Shown in pieces: positions 29,176 through 40,907 of a stretch of 64,000 nucleotides of DNA. The DNA lies in NCBI RefSeq assembly GCF_031844685.1, contig NZ_CP134605.1, positions 4,461,001 to 4,525,000 on the forward strand, read 5' to 3'. Both the position numbers and the translations under genes were made by a program. The notes beneath the pieces are model-generated. The model ran no database searches and had not been told where the DNA came from. It saw only the letters and a list, made by a program, of their open reading frames with translations. Numbering within the stretch: position 1 is the stretch's first letter; every line of letters starts with the position of its first letter. This stretch comes from Streptomyces sp. ITFR-21 (GTDB lineage Bacteria > Actinomycetota > Actinomycetes > Streptomycetales > Streptomycetaceae).

Positions 29176-30561
29176 GTGTCTAATCAACGGCGGATCTGCT
29201 GGTCATGGGAGAGGCGCCAGGTGAGTGTGACGATGATCGAGCACGAGTCCGTCGGGGAGTTGGTCGGTGTGGCTACGTCGGGCGAGCGGTTGATCGCGAT
29301 GCTGGTCGAGCGGGCCCGGAGTGAGGGCGTGCCGCTGACCGGTGAGGGCGGGCTGTTGCAGCAGCTGGCCAAGCGGGTGCTGGAGGGTGTGCTGGAGGCT
29401 GTGCTGGAGGGTGAGATCACCGGTCACCTCGGCTACGGCAAGCATGATCCGGTGGGGAAGAACAGCGGCAGCAGCCGCAACGGCACCCGGGGGAAGACCG
29501 TGCTGACCGATGTCGGGCCGGTCGAGGTCAAGGTGCCGAGGGACGTGGAGGGCAGCTTCGAGCCGCAGACCGTCAGGAAGCGGCAGCGGCGGCTGGCGGG
29601 TGTGGATGAGATGGTGCTGTCGCTGTCCGCGAAGGGCCCCACCCGCGGGGAGATCTCCGAGCACCTGGCCGGGGTCTACGGCGCCGAGGACTCCAAACAG
29701 ACCATCTCCACCATCACCGGCCAGGTGATGGACGGCACGGCCGAACGGCAGAACCGGCCGCTGGACCGCGTCTACCCGGTCCTGTCCGTGGACGCCGTCA
29801 ACGTCAAGATCAGGGACGGAAAGGTCGCCAACCGGCCCGTCTACGTCGTCATGGCCGTCACCGCCGAGGGCGCCCGCGACATCCCCGGCATCCGGGCCGG
29901 CGACGGCGGCGAGGGCGCGCAGTACTGGCTGCAGGTGTTCACCGGACTGAGGAACCGCAGCCTGCACGACGTGCTGATGCTGGTCTGCGACGGACTCAAG
30001 GGCCTGCCCGACGCGGTCGGGACGGTCCGGCTCCGCACCATCGTGCAAAAGTGCATCGTCCACCTCCTGGGCAACACCTGGCGCTACGCGGCCCGCCGAA
30101 ACCGGGACAAGACCGTCAAAGCACTCAAGCCCGTCCACACCGCACCGAACCAGAGCACGGCAGCCGAACGCTTCTCAGAGTTCCAGGACACCTGGGGGAA
30201 GAGGTACCCCGCGATCATCAGGCTCCGGGAGAACGCCTGGGCCGAGTCCGTGCCCTTCCTCTCCTCCGACGTCGAGATCCGCACCGTCATCTGCCCGACC
30301 AACGCCATCGAGTCCGTCAACGCGCGGATACGCGAGGCCGTCCGGGCCCGCGGGCACTTCCCCAACGAGGCCGCCGCCCTGAAATGCGTCTACATGACCC
30401 TCATGACCCTCATGACCCTCGACCCGACCGGCAAGGGCCGCAAGAAGTGGACCATGCGCTGGAAGGCACCACGCAACGCCTTCCAGACCGCTTTCGAGGG
30501 CCGGCTCACCCCGGCCAACAACTGAACCCTCAACAACCAAGATCAGCCGTTAAATTGACAC
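29176..30561 (+). mobile_element. IS256-family insertion sequence
   Basis: The 1,386-bp element is bounded by imperfect inverted repeats: the left end reads gtgtctaatcaacggcggat and the right end, reverse-complemented, reads gtgtcaatttaacggctgat. It holds one transposase gene. The flanks (tggcggga on the left, accccgac on the right) show no 8-9 bp target duplication, and different broken genes lie on each side. A deletion or recombination after insertion is likely. Confidence 0.85.
29221..30525 (+). CDS. IS256-family DDE transposase
   Basis: The GTG at 29221 follows a GGGAGAGG ribosome site and gives 434 residues. The N-terminal region (LLQQLAKRVLEGVLEAVLEG, LGYGKHDPVGKN) is typical of IS256/IS6120-type proteins. 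The catalytic core has the first Asp in LSVDAVNVKIRDGK, the second in LMLVCDGLKGLPDAV, the signature KCIVHLLGN and the Glu in CPTNAIESVNARIR. The enzyme looks complete and possibly active. It occupies nearly the whole element. Confidence 0.93.
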   Translation: MSVTMIEHESVGELVGVATSGERLIAMLVERARSEGVPLTGEGGLLQQLAKRVLEGVLEAVLEGEITGHLGYGKHDPVGKNSGSSRNGTRGKTVLTDVGPVEVKVPRDVEGSFEPQTVRKRQRRLAGVDEMVLSLSAKGPTRGEISEHLAGVYGAEDSKQTISTITGQVMDGTAERQNRPLDRVYPVLSVDAVNVKIRDGKVANRPVYVVMAVTAEGARDIPGIRAGDGGEGAQYWLQVFTGLRNRSLHDVLMLVCDGLKGLPDAVGTVRLRTIVQKCIVHLLGNTWRYAARRNRDKTVKALKPVHTAPNQSTAAERFSEFQDTWGKRYPAIIRLRENAWAESVPFLSSDVEIRTVICPTNAIESVNARIREAVRARGHFPNEAAALKCVYMTLMTLMTLDPTGKGRKKWTMRWKAPRNAFQTAFEGRLTPANN

Positions 30562-32690: not shown

Positions 32691-33938
32691 TCAGCGCAGC
32701 GCCGTCGTGGGCCACAGCGGGTCGGTCGCCGCGTGTTCGGCCTCCCGTAGGACGCGCAGGACGTTGCGGCCGGTCAGTGCCTCTAGCTCGGGGGCGGACC
32801 AACCGCGGCCGGCCAGTTCGCGCAGCAGCGCCGGGTAGCCGGACACGTCGGCGAGTCCGGCCGGCTGGCGGTCGACGCCGTCGTAGTCGCCGCCGAGTCC
32901 GATGTGGTCGACGCCCGCCACCTCGCGGGCGTGCTCGACGTGGTCGGCGACGTCCGCCACAGTGGCGTCCGGGCGGGGATGGCCGGCGAGCCAGCGCCGC
33001 AGCTCCGGGTCGTCCGGGCCGGCCAGCCGCGCGGTGAGCGCGGCGGTGAACTCCGCGGCGGCCTCGGCCGCGGTCTCCTCCGGGCGTGGCGCCCGCGGCC
33101 AGCTCCACTTGGGCGCGGGCAGGTCGAGACGGGCCCGCTCGGCGGCGTAGGCGGCCTCCCACGCGGCGACCCGCGGCGCGACGAAGGACGGTACGAAGGT
33201 CAGCTGGATGACGCCGCCGTTCGCGGGCAGCAGTTCCAGCACGCCGTCGGAGACGTTCCGCGGGTGGTCGTTGACCGCCCGCGCGGAGGAGTGACTGAAG
33301 ATCACCGGGGCGGTGGAGGCCGCCAGCGCGTCGCGCTGGGTGGACTCGGCGACGTGCGAGAGGTCCACCAGGACGCCCAGCCGGTTGAGTTCGGCGACGA
33401 ACGCGCGGCCGGTGGCGTTGAGGCCGCCGACCGCGGGGGTGTCGGTGGCCGAGTCCGCCCACGCGGTGTTGTCGTTGTGGGTGAGGGTGACGTAGCGGAC
33501 GCCGAGCCGGGCGAAGGCCCGCAGCACCCCGGTCGACCCGGCCAGGCTGTGGCCGCCCTCGACGCCCAGCAGTGAGGCGATCCGGCCGTCGGCGACCGCG
33601 CCGGCCACGTCGTCGGCGGTGTACGCGATGCGCAGTTCGTCCGGGTAGCGGGCGACGAGCCGGTAGACCGCGTCGATCTGCTCCAAGGTGGCCACCACCG
33701 CCTCCGGTTCCGGCAGGCCGGAGGAGACGTACACCGACCAGAACTGGGCGCCGACGCCGCCCGCCCGCAGCCGCGGCAGGTCGGTGTGCAGGTCGGGGCG
33801 CCCCTCGGCCAGGCCTTCGACGCTGTAGCCGGAGCGGGCACGCAGTGCGGTGGGCAGGTCGTTGTGCCCGTCGACCACCGGGCTGGACTGGAGGACGTGT
33901 GCCACCAACGCGGTGGGGTCCTCGGCACGTTCGGTCAT
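32691..33938 (-). CDS. M19 (renal/membrane-type) dipeptidase
   Basis: This 415-residue zinc dipeptidase has the first metal ligands in VVDGHNDLP (about 20-28), the bridging Glu in LLGVEGGH, and further ligand regions LVDLSHV and IFSHSSAR. The catalytic-domain end [13 protein letters not shown] is also present. The start at 33938 ([19 protein letters not shown]) follows GGAGAAG; a longer in-frame extension looks non-native. No signal peptide is seen, suggesting a cytoplasmic enzyme. M19 enzymes cleave dipeptides, including Cys-Gly and some D-residue substrates. It lies 239 bp downstream of a peptide transporter on the same strand. Confidence 0.92.
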
Positions 33939-34177
33939 GCTGGTGCTTCTCCGCTCTGCGGTCGGCCGGTCGGGTGGGGGAGTGGGCGGCGGCTCGGGGG
34001 ACGGGGGCGACGCCGGCCCGCGCGGGCGGGGGACCGGACCTCCGAGCGGCGCTTCCCGGCCGGGACCGAGCCGCCGGCCCACCGCGGCGGGGAGCCGACC
34101 GCGGCCGACCGGGCCGGGCGGTCGGCCGCCGCCTGCCGGACGCGCCCGGCAGGCCGGGTACGGAAGGTGCGGGCGGA

Positions 34178-36022
34178 TCACGGCGCGGCCGGTGCCGGGC
34201 GGCGGCGGGCCTGCCGTACCGGGTCGGGGACCGGCAGCGAGGCGATCAGCCGCCGGGTGTAGTCGGCCTGCGGCGCGCCCAGCACCCGGGCGGTCGGGCC
34301 GGTCTCGACCAGCCGGCCCCGGTGCAGTACGGCCACCCGGTCGGCGACCTGCTCGACGACCGCGAGGTCGTGGCTGATGAACAGGGCCGCGAAGCCCAGC
34401 GTCCGCTGGAGCTCGGTGAACAGCTCCAGCACCTTCGCCTGCACCGAGACGTCCAGCGCCGAGGTGGGCTCGTCGGCGATCAGCAGTTGCGGCCGCAGCG
34501 CCAACGCACGGGCCAGGCTGGCCCGTTGCCGCTGGCCGCCGCTCAGTTCGTGCGGGTACCGGTCGGCGTACCCGGCCGGCAGGTGGACGGAGTCCAGCAG
34601 TTCGCCGACCTGTGCCCGGATCGCCGGCCGGCCGAGTTCGCGGCGGTGCACCAGCAGCGGTTCGGCGACGCAGTCCCCGATCGTCAGCAGCGGGTTGAAG
34701 CTGGCCGCCGGGTCCTGGAAGACGAAGCCGATCCGGCCGGCCCGGCTGCTGACGGTGGTGCCGCGGGCGCGGCGCCGTACCGGCAGCGGTTCGCCGAGGA
34801 CGGTCAGGGCGCCGCCGCTGATCGCGGTCAGCCCTGCCACCGCCCGGCCGATCGTGGTCTTGCCGGACCCGCTCTCGCCCACCAGGCCCAGTACCTCGCC
34901 CGCGCCGATCGTCAGGTCCACGCCGTCCACGGCCCGAAACGGCCGGGTGCCGAGCCGGCCGGGGAAGTCGACCACCAGCCGGGATGCGGTGACGACGGGT
35001 TCCGCGTCCGTCGGCGGCGCCGGCGTCCTGGCCGGTCCGGCTCCGAAGTCCGGTACGGCCGCGAGCAGTTCGCGGGTGTAGGGGTGCGCGGGCGTGGCGA
35101 ACAGGGTACGTACGGGGGCCTGTTCGACGATCCGGCCGGCCCGCATCACCGCCACCCGGTCCGCGAGGTCGGCGACGACGCCCATGTTGTGGGTGATCAG
35201 CAGGATCGCGGTGCCGAAGTCGGTGCGGACGCGGTGCAGCAGGTCGAGTATCTCGGCCTGCACGGTCACGTCCAGCGCGGTCGTCGGCTCGTCGGCCACG
35301 ATCAGCCGGGTGCCCAGCGCCAGCGCCATGGCGATCACCGCCCGCTGCTTCTGGCCGCCGGACAGCTGGTGCGGGTAGTGGTCCACCCGGGTGGCCGGGT
35401 CCGGGATGCCGACCTTGTCCAGCATCTCGATCGCGGTGGCCCGCCGGGACGCCCGGCTGCCGCTGCCGTGCGCGCGCAGGCCCTCCGCCAGCTGCCAGCC
35501 GATGGTGAAGACCGGGTTCAGCGCGGTGGACGGCTCCTGGAACACCATCGCGGCGTGCGAGCCGCGCAGCGCCCTGAGCCGGGCGGGCGAGGCGGTGAGC
35601 ACGTCCTGCGCCGGTACGCCGTCGCCGCCGCCCAGCAGCACCCGCCCGGTCGCGGTCGCGGTGCCCGGCAGCAGCCCGAGCACGGCCCGCGCGGTCACCG
35701 TCTTACCGCTGCCGCTCTCGCCGACCAGCGCGAGCACCTCGCCCTCGGCGACGGTCAGATCGACCCCGCTGACGGCCGCCGCCCGGCCGGCGTCGGTGGC
35801 GAACGACACGTGCAGGTCCTCGATCCGCAGCAGCGGCTCGGGCACCCCGGATGACCGGGCCCCGGGTGACGCGGCCCCGGGTGCCGGACGCGCCCCGGCC
35901 ACCGGGTCCGCCCCGGCCGGGGGCCGGTCGGCCGGCGCGTGCGCGGGTCCGGGTACGCGGCCGGGTGCCGGTCCGGCCGTCGCCGTGGCCGCCGGGTCGG
36001 CGGGCCTCGTCGGCTCAGTCAT
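34178..36022 (-). CDS. Fused DppD-DppF peptide ABC transporter ATPase (operon 3)
   Basis: This 614-residue protein carries two complete ABC modules. The first (about 60-320) has [17 protein letters not shown] and [12 protein letters not shown]. The second (about 345-600) has [17 protein letters not shown] and [13 protein letters not shown] Pro/Ala-rich N-terminus of about 60 residues precedes them. One polypeptide thus replaces the separate D and F subunits of operons 1 and 2. The start overlaps the end of the permease gene by 8 bp. It is the last transporter gene before the dipeptidase. Confidence 0.94.
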
Positions 36023-37067
36023 CGCTGGCCCCTTCCTCGGGTGCCTCGGATACCTCGGGTGCCTCGGACTCCGCGCCGCCCTCGGCGACGGGAGCGGACA
36101 CGGCGGCCGTGCCGCGCCGGCGGCGCAGGCGCGGGTCGGCGAGGTCGTTGAGGCTCTCGCCGAGCAGGGTGATGCCGAGGACGGTGAGCACGATGGCGAT
36201 GCCCGGCGGCAGCGCGGTCCACCAGTAGCCCGACGTGACGTCGGCCACCGAGCGGTTGAGGTCGTAGCCCCACTCGGCGGCGGAGTTCGGCTCGATGCCG
36301 AAGCCGAGGAAGCCGAGCCCGGCCAGCGTGAGGATCGCCTCGGAGGCGTTGATGGTCAGGATCAGCGGCAGCGTCCGGACCGAGTTGCGCAGTACGTGCC
36401 GGACCATGATCCGCCAGCGGCCGGTGCCGATCACCCGGGCCGCCTCGACGAAGGGCTCGGCCTTGACCCGGACCACCTCGGACCGCACCACCCGGAAGTA
36501 CTGCGGGATGAACACCACAGCGACCGAGCACGCCCCCGCGCCCAGCCCGCCGACGACGCTGGACTGCCCGCCGCTGATGACGATCGACATGATGATCGCC
36601 AGCAGCAGCGTCGGGAAGGCGTACATCGCGTCGGCGAGCCCGACCAGCAGCCGGTCCAGCCAGCCGCCGAGATAGCCGGAGACCAGGCCGAGCAGCACCC
36701 CGGCGGCCACCGAGAGGACCAGCGCGGACACCACGATCCCCACCGCGGTACGGGTACCCCACAGGGTGCGTGACAGCACGTCGTACCCGGCGACGGTGGT
36801 GCCCAGCAGGTGGCCGTGGCCCGGGTGCTGCTGCGAGCCGAACAGCTTTCCGCCGGACTGGAGTTGGGCGTACCCGTAGGGGGCGAGCAGCGGTGCCAGC
36901 AACGCGGTGAGCAGGAACAGCGCGGTCAGCGCGGCCCCGGTCAGCAGCATCGCGCGCTGGAGGCCGACGCTGCCGCGCACCCGGGCCGGAACAGGCAGCC
37001 GGGCCGGCCCGGTCCGGCGCCGGACCGGGCCGGCGGGCGGGCGGCGGGTGAGCTGCCGGTGCGCCAT
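36015..37067 (-). CDS. Peptide ABC transporter permease, DppC type (operon 3)
   Basis: The product is 350 residues: a basic N-terminus, the first helix LTGAALTALFLLTALLAPLL, a periplasmic part GHLLGTTVAGYDVLSRTLWG, the EAA loop EAARVIGTGRWRIMVRHVLR and an acidic C-terminal tail unique to this copy. The ATG overlaps the stop of the DppB-type gene (ATGA), and its own end overlaps the ATPase start by 8 bp, so the genes are tightly coupled. Confidence 0.94.
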   Translation of the reverse strand: MAHRQLTRRPPAGPVRRRTGPARLPVPARVRGSVGLQRAMLLTGAALTALFLLTALLAPLLAPYGYAQLQSGGKLFGSQQHPGHGHLLGTTVAGYDVLSRTLWGTRTAVGIVVSALVLSVAAGVLLGLVSGYLGGWLDRLLVGLADAMYAFPTLLLAIIMSIVISGGQSSVVGGLGAGACSVAVVFIPQYFRVVRSEVVRVKAEPFVEAARVIGTGRWRIMVRHVLRNSVRTLPLILTINASEAILTLAGLGFLGFGIEPNSAAEWGYDLNRSVADVTSGYWWTALPPGIAIVLTVLGITLLGESLNDLADPRLRRRRGTAAVSAPVAEGGAESEAPEVSEAPEEGASDD

Positions 37068-38158
37068 CAGTACCTCACCCGCGGGTCGATGAGCGCCGCG
37101 ACGACGTCGACGAGGAAGTTGGTGACCGCCACGACCACCGCGAACAGTGCCACGATCCCCTGCACCGCGGAGAAGTCACGTACCGTCAGATAGTGCGCCA
37201 ACTCGTAGCCGAGGCCCTTCCACTCGAAGGTGGTCTCGGTCAGTACCGCGCCGCCCAGCAGGCCCGCGATCTGCAGGCCGAGCACGGTGACGATCGGGAT
37301 CAGCGCGGGCCGCATCGCGTGCCGGCTCACCAGCCGCCCGGTGCGCACCCCGCGGGACCGGGCGGCCTCCACGTAGTCCGCGGACAGCGTGCCGATGAGG
37401 TTGGTCCTGACCAGCCGCAGCAGCACCCCGGCGACCAGCAGTCCGAGCGCCAGGCTGGGCAGTACCGCGTGCCGCAGCACGTCGGCGACGGCCGAGCCGT
37501 CCCCGCTGCGGAGCGCGTCGACCAGGTAGATGCCGGTGGTGCTGGTCTGGTTCTGCAACTCCAGCTGCACCCCGGTGCCGGCCCGGCCGGACACCGGCAG
37601 CCAGCCCAGCCACACCGCGAAGACCAGCTTCAGCAGCAGGCCCACGAAGAAGACCGGCATCGCGTAGCCGAGGATCGCCAGCAGCCGCAGCGTCGCGTCC
37701 GGCCCCCGGTCGCGGTACCGGGCCGCGACCATGCCCAGCGGAACGCCGACCACGATCGCCACCAGCAGCGCGTAGCCGGCCAGTTCGAGGGTCGCCGCGC
37801 CGTAGGTGCGCAGCACGTGGGAGACCGCCTCGTTGTCGGTGGCGGTCCGGCCGAAGTTCCCGGTGGCCACCGACCGCAGATAGCTCAGGTACTGGGTGAG
37901 CAGCGGTTTGTCGTAGCCGGCCTGGTGCAGCTTGGCGTGCAGCTGCTCCGGGGTCAGCCGGTCGCCGAAGGCGGTGGTGATCGGGTCACCGGTCGCCCGC
38001 ATCAGGAAGAAGACCACGCTGACCAGGACGAACACGGTGGGGAAGATCAGCAGGAAGCGCGCCACCAGGTAGCGGACCAGTCCGCTGCCCAGCAGCCGCC
38101 CCGCCGGGCCGGCCGGCCCGGCCGTGTCCTGGGGGTCGATGTCGACCAGTGCTGTCAC
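37067..38158 (-). CDS. Peptide ABC transporter permease, DppB type (operon 3)
   Basis: The product is 363 residues from the GTG at 38158 (VTALVDIDPQDTAG); an upstream in-frame start is possible. It has the DppB-type start of the first helix (VRYLVARFLLIFPTVFVLVS), the dipeptide permease periplasmic region GDPITTAFGDRLTPEQLHAK, an EAA loop EAARSRGVRTGRLVSRHAMR and the C-terminus AALIDPRVRY. The hairpin at 38187-38225 separates it from the binding-protein gene. Confidence 0.92.
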   Translation of the reverse strand: MTALVDIDPQDTAGPAGPAGRLLGSGLVRYLVARFLLIFPTVFVLVSVVFFLMRATGDPITTAFGDRLTPEQLHAKLHQAGYDKPLLTQYLSYLRSVATGNFGRTATDNEAVSHVLRTYGAATLELAGYALLVAIVVGVPLGMVAARYRDRGPDATLRLLAILGYAMPVFFVGLLLKLVFAVWLGWLPVSGRAGTGVQLELQNQTSTTGIYLVDALRSGDGSAVADVLRHAVLPSLALGLLVAGVLLRLVRTNLIGTLSADYVEAARSRGVRTGRLVSRHAMRPALIPIVTVLGLQIAGLLGGAVLTETTFEWKGLGYELAHYLTVRDFSAVQGIVALFAVVVAVTNFLVDVVAALIDPRVRY

Positions 38159-38186
38159 GATGCGCACCCGCTCCCGCGTATGACGC

Positions 38187-38225
38187 CCGGCGGGACGCAC
38201 GGCACTCGGCCGTGCGTCCCGCCGG
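38187..38225 (-). promoter_or_regulatory. Intercistronic hairpin after binding-protein gene (operon 3)
   Basis: Perfect 17-bp arms (38187-38203 and 38209-38225) with a 5-nt loop (actcg) lie directly between the binding-protein stop (38244) and the permease start (38158). The position matches the hairpins of operons 1 and 2. Confidence 0.75.
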
Positions 38226-38243: not shown

Positions 38244-39908
38244 TCACTTCTTGGTCAGTTCCGCCCAGCGGAACTGGTACGAGCTGTCCAGCTTGTCCGG
38301 CACCCCGGTCACGTCCGCCCGGGTGACGATCGCGGTGGAGCCCTGGAGCAGCGGCAGCAGCGGAACCGCGGCGGCCACCTTGTCCTGCACCTGCTCGATG
38401 AGCGCGGTCCGCTTCGCCGGGTCGGTCGCGGTCTCCTCCTGGTGGATGAGCGAGGTGACCGCCGCGTCCTGGTAGCCGTTGTTCACCCAGCTGTTGGCCG
38501 AGTAGAACGACGCCAGGTAGTCGTCGGCGTCCAGGTAGTCGGCGTACCAGCCGAGCTGGTACAGCGGGTACAGGTCGGCGACCCGGTCCTTGCCGTACTG
38601 CGCCCACTCGGTGGACTGGAGGTTCACCTTGAACAGGCCGGACGCCTCCAACTGCGTTTTGACCAGCGCGTACTCGTCGGACGAGGACGAGCCGTAGTGG
38701 TCGGTGTTGTACTGGAGGTTCAGTGTCACCGGCGTCGTGACCCCGGCGGCGCTCAGCCTCTGCTTGGCCGCGGCCGGGTCGGCGCCGCCCTTCTTGTCGC
38801 CGTAGCGGGACGTGAAGGAGTCGGTGGCGCCGGTGATGCCGTCGGGCACCGAGGAGTACAGCGGCTCGAAGGTGTTCTTGTAGACCTGGTCGGCGAGTTG
38901 GGCGCGGTCAACGGTGTCGGCCACCGCCTGCCGGACCGCCAGCGCCTTCGCCGGGTCGGCCTCCTTGGTGGCCGAACCGTACGGCTGCGTCTTGAAGTTG
39001 AAGACGATGAAGCGGATGCCGTTGCCGGATCCGGTGTGGACCGTGATGCCCTTCTTGCCGGACAGGTCCTGCAGGTCGGTCACCGTCAGCGTGCGGTAGA
39101 CGACGTCGACGCCGCCCTGCTGCACGTCGAGCTTGAGGTTGCTGGCGTCGGTGTAGTACTTCAGCCGCACCTGCGCGTTCTTGGGCTTGCCCAACGAGCC
39201 CCGGTAGACGCTGTTGGCGGAGAACGACACCAGCGAGTTCTTCTGGTAGCTGTCGATCGTGTACGGGCCCTCCCACGGCTTGCCCGCGATGATCGCCGAG
39301 TCGTCGAGGACCTTGTCGGCGGGGAAGACCTGCTCGTCCGCGATCAGCCCCGCCGAGGTGGACAGCACCTGCGGGAACAGCGTGTCGTTGGCGGACTTGA
39401 GGGTGAACACCACGGTCGCCGGGTCCGGCGCCGCCACGGCCGCCAGGTCGTACAGCAGCGACGACGGGCCGTTCTCGTCGGCGATCCTCAGCTGCCGGTC
39501 GAAGCTGAACTTCACGTCGGAGGAGGTCAGGTCGTGGCCGTTGGCGAACTTCAGGCCCGGCTTGAGCGTCACCGTGTACTCCTTGGGCGCGCTGAGCTTG
39601 ATGCTCGCCGCGAGGTCGGGGGACACGTCCGACGAGCCGTTGGGCGCCGCCAGCAGGGTTGCGTAGACCTCGCCCTCGATGGTGCCGGAGCCGGCGTCCC
39701 AGGAACCGGCCGGGTCGAGGCTGGAGACCTGGTCGGTGGTGCCGATGGTGATCGCCTTGGCGGAACCGCCGCCGTTGTCGGCCGCGTCGGCGGTGTCGGA
39801 TCTGGTGCTGGTGCACGCGGTCAGGGCCAGGAGTGCGGCCGTGCCCAGCGAGACGACGGTGATGCCGTCGCGGGCGGGCCTGCGGTTGCGGAACTGACGC
39901 ACAGTCAT
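38244..39908 (-). CDS. Peptide ABC transporter substrate-binding lipoprotein (operon 3)
   Basis: This is a 554-residue SBP family 5 lipoprotein. The start at 39908 (MTVRQFRNRRPARDGITVVS) gives an Arg-rich n-region and lipobox LTAC with Cys32. The body holds VTLKPGLKFANGHDLTSSDV, the peptide-binding family signature. It is the first structural gene after a long leader that contains a SAM-type riboswitch and a Cys-codon leader peptide, so it is probably repressed when sulfur amino acids are plentiful. Likely ligands are sulfur-containing peptides, by inference only. Confidence 0.92.
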   Translation of the reverse strand: MTVRQFRNRRPARDGITVVSLGTAALLALTACTSTRSDTADAADNGGGSAKAITIGTTDQVSSLDPAGSWDAGSGTIEGEVYATLLAAPNGSSDVSPDLAASIKLSAPKEYTVTLKPGLKFANGHDLTSSDVKFSFDRQLRIADENGPSSLLYDLAAVAAPDPATVVFTLKSANDTLFPQVLSTSAGLIADEQVFPADKVLDDSAIIAGKPWEGPYTIDSYQKNSLVSFSANSVYRGSLGKPKNAQVRLKYYTDASNLKLDVQQGGVDVVYRTLTVTDLQDLSGKKGITVHTGSGNGIRFIVFNFKTQPYGSATKEADPAKALAVRQAVADTVDRAQLADQVYKNTFEPLYSSVPDGITGATDSFTSRYGDKKGGADPAAAKQRLSAAGVTTPVTLNLQYNTDHYGSSSSDEYALVKTQLEASGLFKVNLQSTEWAQYGKDRVADLYPLYQLGWYADYLDADDYLASFYSANSWVNNGYQDAAVTSLIHQEETATDPAKRTALIEQVQDKVAAAVPLLPLLQGSTAIVTRADVTGVPDKLDSSYQFRWAELTKK

Positions 39909-40085
39909 GGGTCTCTGCCTTCGGGTCGGCGCGAGGAGTGCGGGTCGAAGCGGGCCCGCGGCACACGGCACAGCGGGCATCGCGGGGAGTCCGGTCACCG
40001 ACCGGCCCATGACGGCGCCACCGGGCCGATGGGCGGACCGGGAAGCGCGGCACCGTAGCGGGAGGGGAGGTCAGCGGTGATCGGG

Positions 40086-40104
40086 CGGCCGTCGGGGACG
40101 GCCG
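40086..40104 (-). terminator. Attenuator-like hairpin after the leader peptide
   Basis: Perfect 8-bp arms 40086-40093 and 40097-40104 with loop ggg start 17 bases after the leader-peptide stop. The intervening bases can form a competing weaker stem (gacgg with ccgtc), the arrangement expected of an attenuator. No U-tract is present. Confidence 0.5.
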
Positions 40105-40120
40105 GACGGGAGACTCGCCG

Positions 40121-40249
40121 TCAACTCCGACAGAGCGAACTGCAGACCAGCAGCAGGTCGATGTGCCGCCGGCTGAAGAACGGGACATCGAGCGGGGAGC
40201 CGGGGGAGCGGGGCGCGGCGGCGTACGGCGACCCGGTGGGTGCGGCCAT
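40121..40249 (-). CDS. Cysteine-type leader peptide
   Basis: This 42-residue ORF has ATG at 40249 preceded by GAAGGA. It ends RRHIDLLLVCSSLCRS: the RRHIDL core followed by a Cys-containing tail is the hallmark of short actinobacterial leader peptides found upstream of sulfur-assimilation genes. Two Cys codons (TGC and TGT) lie within seven codons of the stop. Ribosome stalling there when Cys-tRNA is scarce would alter folding of the following hairpins and relieve attenuation of the transporter genes. The motif match is strong; the mechanism is from related systems. Confidence 0.85.
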   Translation of the reverse strand: MAAPTGSPYAAAPRSPGSPLDVPFFSRRHIDLLLVCSSLCRS

Positions 40250-40315
40250 GCCCGTCCTTCCCCTGATCGGACCGGCCGGCTCTCCGACTGGTGATCGCGC
40301 TTGCGGAACAGAGTC

Positions 40316-40400
40316 CCACCGAGCCTTCACCTGGAGCACCCCACCGCGTCGTGAGGGTTGCTGTCCGGCAAGCCAGGGCTTGGAACACCGGAACTCGTGG
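40316..40400 (-). promoter_or_regulatory. SAM riboswitch (SAM-I/SAM-IV clan)
   Basis: Read on the reverse strand, the core AAGCCCTGGCTTGCCGG, AGCAACCC (40355-40362), GCGGTGGGGTGC (40336-40347) and CCAGGTGA follow the order and spacing of actinobacterial SAM-IV aptamers. Helices fit: P1 CCACGAG with CTCGgTGG, P2 TCCGG with CCGGA, P3 CCTCAC with GTGGGG. It ends about 65 bases before the leader-peptide ATG. A stem TCGGA/TCCGA with a ccggccgg core just before the ribosome site is a plausible expression platform. S-adenosylmethionine would switch off the operon. Confidence 0.78.
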
Positions 40401-40520
40401 CGTGCCAGCAAGGTAAATCAGTGCTTCCCGGCGGGTCAAGGGATTCCGGCGGGCAACACCGCGCTCCCGTAGGGGCGTTGCCTGCGGCCCCGCGCCGCGC
40501 GGCTCCGCCGCCGTGAGCCG

Positions 40521-40907
40521 CTACGAAGCGTCGTCCGCGTCGTCCTCGTCGTCCTCGTCGCCCGGCCACAGCGCGTCGGCGCGCAGCGCGAGGTCCTGCA
40601 GCACGTCGGCGGAGGAGATGTCGGTACGGCCGGCGTCGTGGATGTCGGCCAGCTGGAGGAAGATCAGCGAGAAGGCGCCGGTGAGGCGTTCGATGACCGG
40701 GCTGAGCTGGAGGCTGATCGCCTCGCCCAGCTCGGCCGGGGTGGCGTCCACCGGCAGTTCGATGACCGGCATCGTCTCGTTGAGGAGGGCGCGTACGTTG
40801 TCGCCGGAGATGTCCTCGCGGTCGGGGTCCTCCTCCAGCAGGGTCTGCATCTGCTTGGCCTCGGTGAGGATGCCGATGATCCGGCGCACGAAGTCGCTGT
40901 CGTTCAT
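40521..40907 (-). CDS. Conserved hypothetical protein with acidic tail
   Basis: This 128-residue soluble protein starts MNDSDFVRRIIGILTEAKQM and is mainly helical, with an amphipathic middle (SLQLSPVIERLTGAFSLIFL) and an Asp/Glu-rich end (WPGDEDDEDDADD). Closely similar proteins seem common in streptomycetes; I cannot name a function. It is divergent from the BrkB-like gene. The 364-bp gap between them (40908-41271) is GC-rich with ggccggtggcc-type repeats and no visible gene. Confidence 0.7.
   Translation of the reverse strand: MNDSDFVRRIIGILTEAKQMQTLLEEDPDREDISGDNVRALLNETMPVIELPVDATPAELGEAISLQLSPVIERLTGAFSLIFLQLADIHDAGRTDISSADVLQDLALRADALWPGDEDDEDDADDAS

Follow-up and report, generated by a model that had tools for sequence, protein, structure and literature searches.

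A SAM-IV riboswitch aptamer in series with a cysteine leader ORF upstream of a predicted peptide import operon in Streptomyces, and the recurrence of this arrangement in related actinobacteria

Background

Actinobacterial sulfur genes are associated with two kinds of sensor in their 5' regions. A SAM-IV leader of Streptomyces clavuligerus yields a premature transcript (PMC8269248), and leader peptides containing Cys codons were predicted ahead of actinobacterial cys operons in 2005. Cysteine-responsive attenuation of cysteine genes has been reported in Mycobacterium smegmatis (cited in PMC13236596). Outside the actinobacteria, the mgtA leader of Salmonella joins a riboswitch to the proline-rich mgtL ORF and is Rho-dependent (PMC5021804).

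We analysed a 64,000 nucleotide stretch of the Streptomyces sp. ITFR-21 genome (here called the window), in which an original prediction made from the letters alone had placed a SAM-IV-like aptamer, a cysteine leader peptide and candidate attenuator stems in series ahead of a peptide importer. Both sensors are of known kinds, each already described alone, as that prediction had stated. A SAM-IV riboswitch joined to a Cys leader was not described in the open-access literature that we searched, a search outside which most subscription papers lie, nor does the combination appear in a 2025 survey of contiguous riboswitches.

Results

The control region contains the following features, all on the minus strand:
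40439-40434 (TTGACC) and 40415-40410 (TACCTT), minus strand: putative promoter with an 18-nt spacer, read from the sequence
40402..40292, minus strand: SAM-IV riboswitch aptamer, full-length RF00634 match
40255..40264, minus strand: Shine-Dalgarno-like sequence AGGGGAAGGA before the leader ATG, aligning with GGGAGGAC in orthologues
40249..40121, minus strand: leader ORF of 42 codons, MAAPTGSPYAAAPRSPGSPLDVPFFSRRHIDLLLVCSSLCRS, from the ORF translation, its motif also found in 47 other composites (SAM-IV aptamer followed by such a leader)
40142..40144, minus strand: second Cys codon, UGC, at motif position +7
40130..40132, minus strand: Cys codon UGU at +11 of the HxDL motif

By model match the element at 40402..40292 is a SAM-IV riboswitch aptamer, predicted to bind SAM. 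RF00634 aligned over model positions 1-116 and scored 76.7 bits, the gathering score being 38, with an E of 7e-12 across the window, as expected from the SAM-IV-like fold first proposed. The covariance-model comparison that had been suggested as a check returned SAM-IV as the only Rfam match in 39850-40600, even with matches at E<=1 included, and as the sole SAM-clan match kept there. Among the genome's five SAM-IV copies this aptamer scores lowest (76.7 vs 95-104 bits for the other four). Alignment showed TTGACC and TGATyTAnCTT to be retained at the orthologous loci of G028 (another species with the full composite) and of three Kitasatospora; a consensus promoter scan did not call the TTGACC-18-TACCTT element at 40439-40410.

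The leader peptide was found where expected in kind, an ORF with a Shine-Dalgarno sequence behind the aptamer, the distance from aptamer end to start codon being 42 nt and not the approximately 65 first given. Its C-terminal end is RRHIDLLLVCSSLCRS, as predicted, and it carries the motif HxDLxRV with a Cys shortly after (RRHIDLLLVCSSLC), the core R being L here. The window leader matched NF042936 with an E of 1.3e-4 over positions 1-20 of 21 and lies under the curated cut-offs of both NF042936 and NF042934 (21.5 vs 45 and 11.1 vs 27 bits); sibling leaders in the same genome exceed the NF042934 cut-off. The order and identity of both devices, a SAM aptamer and a Cys leader in series, are supported.

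Behind four of the five SAM-IV aptamers in the window's genome lies an ORF that shares this C-terminal motif, the aptamer coming first every time, and the fifth leads straight into a cysteine-desulfurase-like gene. Because the leader motif recurs behind four of five copies (chance estimate ~7e-15), the aptamer-leader arrangement exceeds chance. Two of the four composites form a divergent pair (L089, 6395522-6395926 in the genome), in which two SAM-IV aptamers are separated by about 180 nt and each is followed by its own Cys leader; a luciferase-like gene stands behind one and a family-3 binding protein behind the other.

We then counted leaders in two genera, using 35 species of the window's genus together with loci of a large sister genus. 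Leaders were present at 48 of 55 non-desulfurase SAM-IV loci vs 0 of 46 desulfurase-type loci, with a Fisher p of 1e-21 that is uncorrected for kinship and only indicative, because the loci are related and those of the sister genus were chosen from the match list, not randomly drawn. An apparent lack of leaders in the sister genus came from an overly narrow strict motif and was dropped, as the wider motif identified them at 13/14 of its non-desulfurase loci. Start-codon candidates lie 18-49 nt past the aptamer end in all 48 composites. The motif search gave no leader at 25 SAM-IV loci chosen by score outside the family. Restriction of composites to the family was nevertheless abandoned, since coordinate cross-matching identified one in another family (G225, L264), where SAM-IV is followed by ...SRRHVDLVRVASCTCR and then a luciferase-like gene. 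A named example is on a Streptomyces chartreusis plasmid (L323).

Luciferase-like monooxygenases and amino-acid-type ABC permeases predominate downstream of composites; GST-like proteins, binding proteins of the NMT1, family-3 and family-5 types, and DUF1684 are also represented. The implication of the original prediction that the composite is peculiar to a peptide transporter is not supported; the monooxygenases, permeases and GST-like proteins share it, as do NMT1-type and family-3 binding proteins. It recurs before many other operons of related bacteria that are probably sulfur-scavenging.

Other SAM-IV loci showed arrangements of their own. At three desulfurase-like loci of the window's genus (L006, L053, L065) a tiny ORF, [MV][SR]KRMR and a stop, lies just past the aptamer, for example ATGCGCAAGCGAATGCGATAG, with a hairpin of the GGGCC..GGCCC type behind it; the tiny ORF may represent another class of short ORF or may belong to the RNA. 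At L080 (G010 contig 346, 85713-86742) three SAM-IV matches, two of them low-scoring, fall in a span of about 1 kb ahead of short hypothetical genes and lack a Cys leader.

Downstream of the leader the window contains:
39912..40120, minus strand: untranslated stretch from the leader stop to the binding-protein start, with a hairpin GGCCGUC-CCC-GACGGCC and no T-tailed terminator
38244..39911, minus strand: family 5 solute-binding protein (SBP_bac_5; PF00496, E 1e-65)
37067..38200, minus strand: ABC permease of OppB/DppB type (BPD_transp_1; PF00528)
36015..37067, minus strand: ABC permease of OppC/DppC type (BPD_transp_1; PF00528)
34178..36022, minus strand: double ABC ATPase of OppDF type (PF00005, PF08352)
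32691..34181, minus strand: membrane dipeptidase, peptidase family M19 (PF01244, E 2e-108)

About 210 nt separate the leader stop from the start of the operon. A family 5 binding protein, two permeases and an OppDF-type ATPase in a single operon make up a peptide ABC importer, in agreement with the transporter originally named. The M19 gene, whose end overlaps the ATPase gene by 4 nt, is an operon member absent from the first description. The M19 family includes enzymes that split cysteinyl-glycine. M19 adjoins the importer in G028 too, and was not found in G030 or G023 within the stretch examined around the importer. The operon may have a role in the import of Cys-containing peptides. Elsewhere in the window, a Mutator-family transposase gene (PF00872) lies at 29176-30525 on the plus strand.

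Across the 48 composites the core HxDLxRV (HxDLxRV....C) is kept, with synonymous variation among its Arg, Leu, Ala and Asp codons, a pattern that shows selection on the leader at the peptide level. Counted from the His, the Cys codon at +11 is UGU in 104 of the 105 leaders with a Cys there (41/41 composites, 15/15 leader-only loci of the window's genome and 48/49 across the class). The remaining Cys codons in the same motifs comprise 67 UGC and 22 UGU, and the coding background 87 UGC and 8 UGU (n=95), UGC being dominant in these genomes. In most composites the core holds just one Cys. Seven composites before GST-like genes (L057, L083, L084, L085-L088) have no Cys at +11, with UGC at +7 or +10 instead. 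Rather than the simple Cys-codon leader first described, the ORF has a conserved peptide core and a near-invariant UGU at one position, a bias that may stem from decoding, the nascent peptide or the RNA sequence. Leaders with the same motif but without SAM-IV precede, in the window's genome, genes resembling sulfite reductase, rhodanese-type sulfurtransferase and sulfur-type monooxygenases.

Orthologues of the binding protein that are about 80% identical differ in what precedes them. G028 has both SAM-IV (86.8 bits) and leader, G030 a serial pair of Cys leader ORFs without SAM-IV (L168) and G023 a leader only. Three Kitasatospora loci can be aligned with the window over the promoter and the initial aptamer bases, CGCCACGAGTTCCGG; the remainder of the aptamer is gone and the leader comes next. 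This alignment is most simply read as a deletion of the aptamer, although the protein tree does not resolve the deep forks and so allows either order of gain and loss. Orthologues in Catenulispora and Dactylosporangium have neither aptamer nor leader. An ABC permease operon elsewhere in the window's genome (L049, 6747425-6747463) has a Cys leader without SAM-IV, and its relatives in the sister genus carry both.

A number of searches addressed the switching step. No intrinsic terminator with a T run after the leader, the mark of a classical amino-acid transcription attenuator, was found in 39880-40520. The stems following the window leader outdid shuffles only mildly (z -1.35 to -1.49), so the candidate attenuator stems of the original prediction do not clearly rise above the background. 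Base pairing between the segment with the Cys codons and RNA further downstream looked suggestive at several loci on inspection, but did not exceed shuffles (0.42 vs 0.46, p 0.40, 41 loci). Complementarity between leader and ribosome binding site was not locus-specific (permutation p 0.44), in a test made imperfect by an automatic start that is wrong for the window gene, and accessibility of the leader Shine-Dalgarno was independent of whether aptamers were real or shuffled (p 0.76). A Rho-type C-rich stretch was set aside as weak: the C-over-G excess after the leader (0.198) only slightly exceeds the value for desulfurase 5' regions (0.144), and Rho is therefore not specifically supported.

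Discussion

We favour, with moderate confidence, two serial checkpoints that would permit expression only under joint scarcity of SAM and charged Cys-tRNA, because of the architecture, its conservation and the precedents; the terminator, pairing and initiation tests were negative. Dual-signal logic of this kind is plausible. High SAM would shut the transcript first, by premature transcription termination or by a block of leader translation, the leader start lying only 18-49 nt past the aptamer. Under low SAM, ribosomes would translate the leader; with ample charged Cys-tRNA they would run through it and expression would be attenuated, and with scarce charged Cys-tRNA they would stall at the UGU near the leader end and the downstream genes would be expressed. 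The stalled ribosome could act on the downstream gene through Rho, mRNA structure or release of the ribosome binding site. Taken together, the two steps would form an AND-type gate, requiring both low SAM and low Cys, that switches on the import and hydrolysis of peptides, which probably contain sulfur.

Aptamer and leader may alternatively be two independent attenuators, each with its own expression platform and acting additively in an OR-like manner. The modules do part in evolution: Kitasatospora keep the promoter, first aptamer bases and leader without the aptamer core, the G030 and G023 orthologues have leaders without SAM-IV and desulfurase-type SAM-IV aptamers lack this leader. We also detected no coupling at the RNA level between aptamer and leader start. 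The short spacing in 48/48 composites, however, leaves little room for a separate terminator-type platform, and we regard independent action as unlikely. Still less probable is that the window aptamer is decaying and the Cys leader is the sole regulator of the operon; its score is the lowest of the genome's five and the aptamer is absent or truncated at several orthologous loci, but it is still full length at twice the gathering score and the G028 orthologue retains 86.8 bits.

A tentative further possibility concerns the leader itself, which may encode an arrest-type nascent peptide with HxDLxRV in the exit tunnel and the +11 UGU in the A site, making it a Cys-tRNA sensor with a single Cys codon. 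This would refine either the serial or the independent reading and is compatible with both. The conserved residues upstream of the Cys with their synonymous variation, the restriction of near-invariant UGU to +11 when other motif Cys codons are mostly UGC and the single core Cys of most composites all point towards it; the seven GST-type composites with UGC at +7 or +10 and no +11 Cys speak against it. Combining the arrest peptide with the favoured serial gate would give a SAM-gated nascent-peptide sensor, in which the riboswitch controls access to the leader and the peptide core makes the single UGU a Cys-tRNA sensor, a recurrent two-input sulfur gate that would span Streptomycetaceae and one or more further families of actinobacteria; this combined form we consider doubtful.

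Were the serial logic true, these loci would represent a recurrent natural two-input RNA gate reading SAM and charged Cys-tRNA on one transcript, with a small-molecule riboswitch and a ribosome-based sensor joined together. Related species that have or lack the aptamer before the same leader provide ready natural comparisons, and the near-invariant UGU allows a direct test of a codon-specific or nascent-peptide role. The composite also marks likely sulfur-scavenging operons.

Among known leaders, NF042934 (putative leader peptide) and NF042936 (Ms4527A) of actinobacteria and mycobacteria share the C-terminal motif HxDLxRV..xxC with the window leader, which differs in falling below their cut-offs and in having a Shine-Dalgarno sequence and a riboswitch upstream. 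The polycysteine leaderless short ORFs reported in M. smegmatis (Canestrari et al. 2020; Shell et al. 2015, PMC4633059) are likewise short ORFs with Cys codons near the end ahead of sulfur genes; unlike them the window ORF has a Shine-Dalgarno sequence and an upstream aptamer, and so is not leaderless, and has two separated Cys codons in place of a Cys run. The Salmonella mgtA leader similarly places a riboswitch and an amino-acid-sensing ORF in one 5' region, but its RNA, ligand and peptide are unrelated, and Rho is not specifically supported at the window locus. The aptamer resembles described SAM-IV riboswitches (RF00634; Weinberg et al. 2008) in its full-length match, its position at the 5' transcript end and its place before likely sulfur genes, and differs from them in preceding a translated leader and not a structural gene directly.
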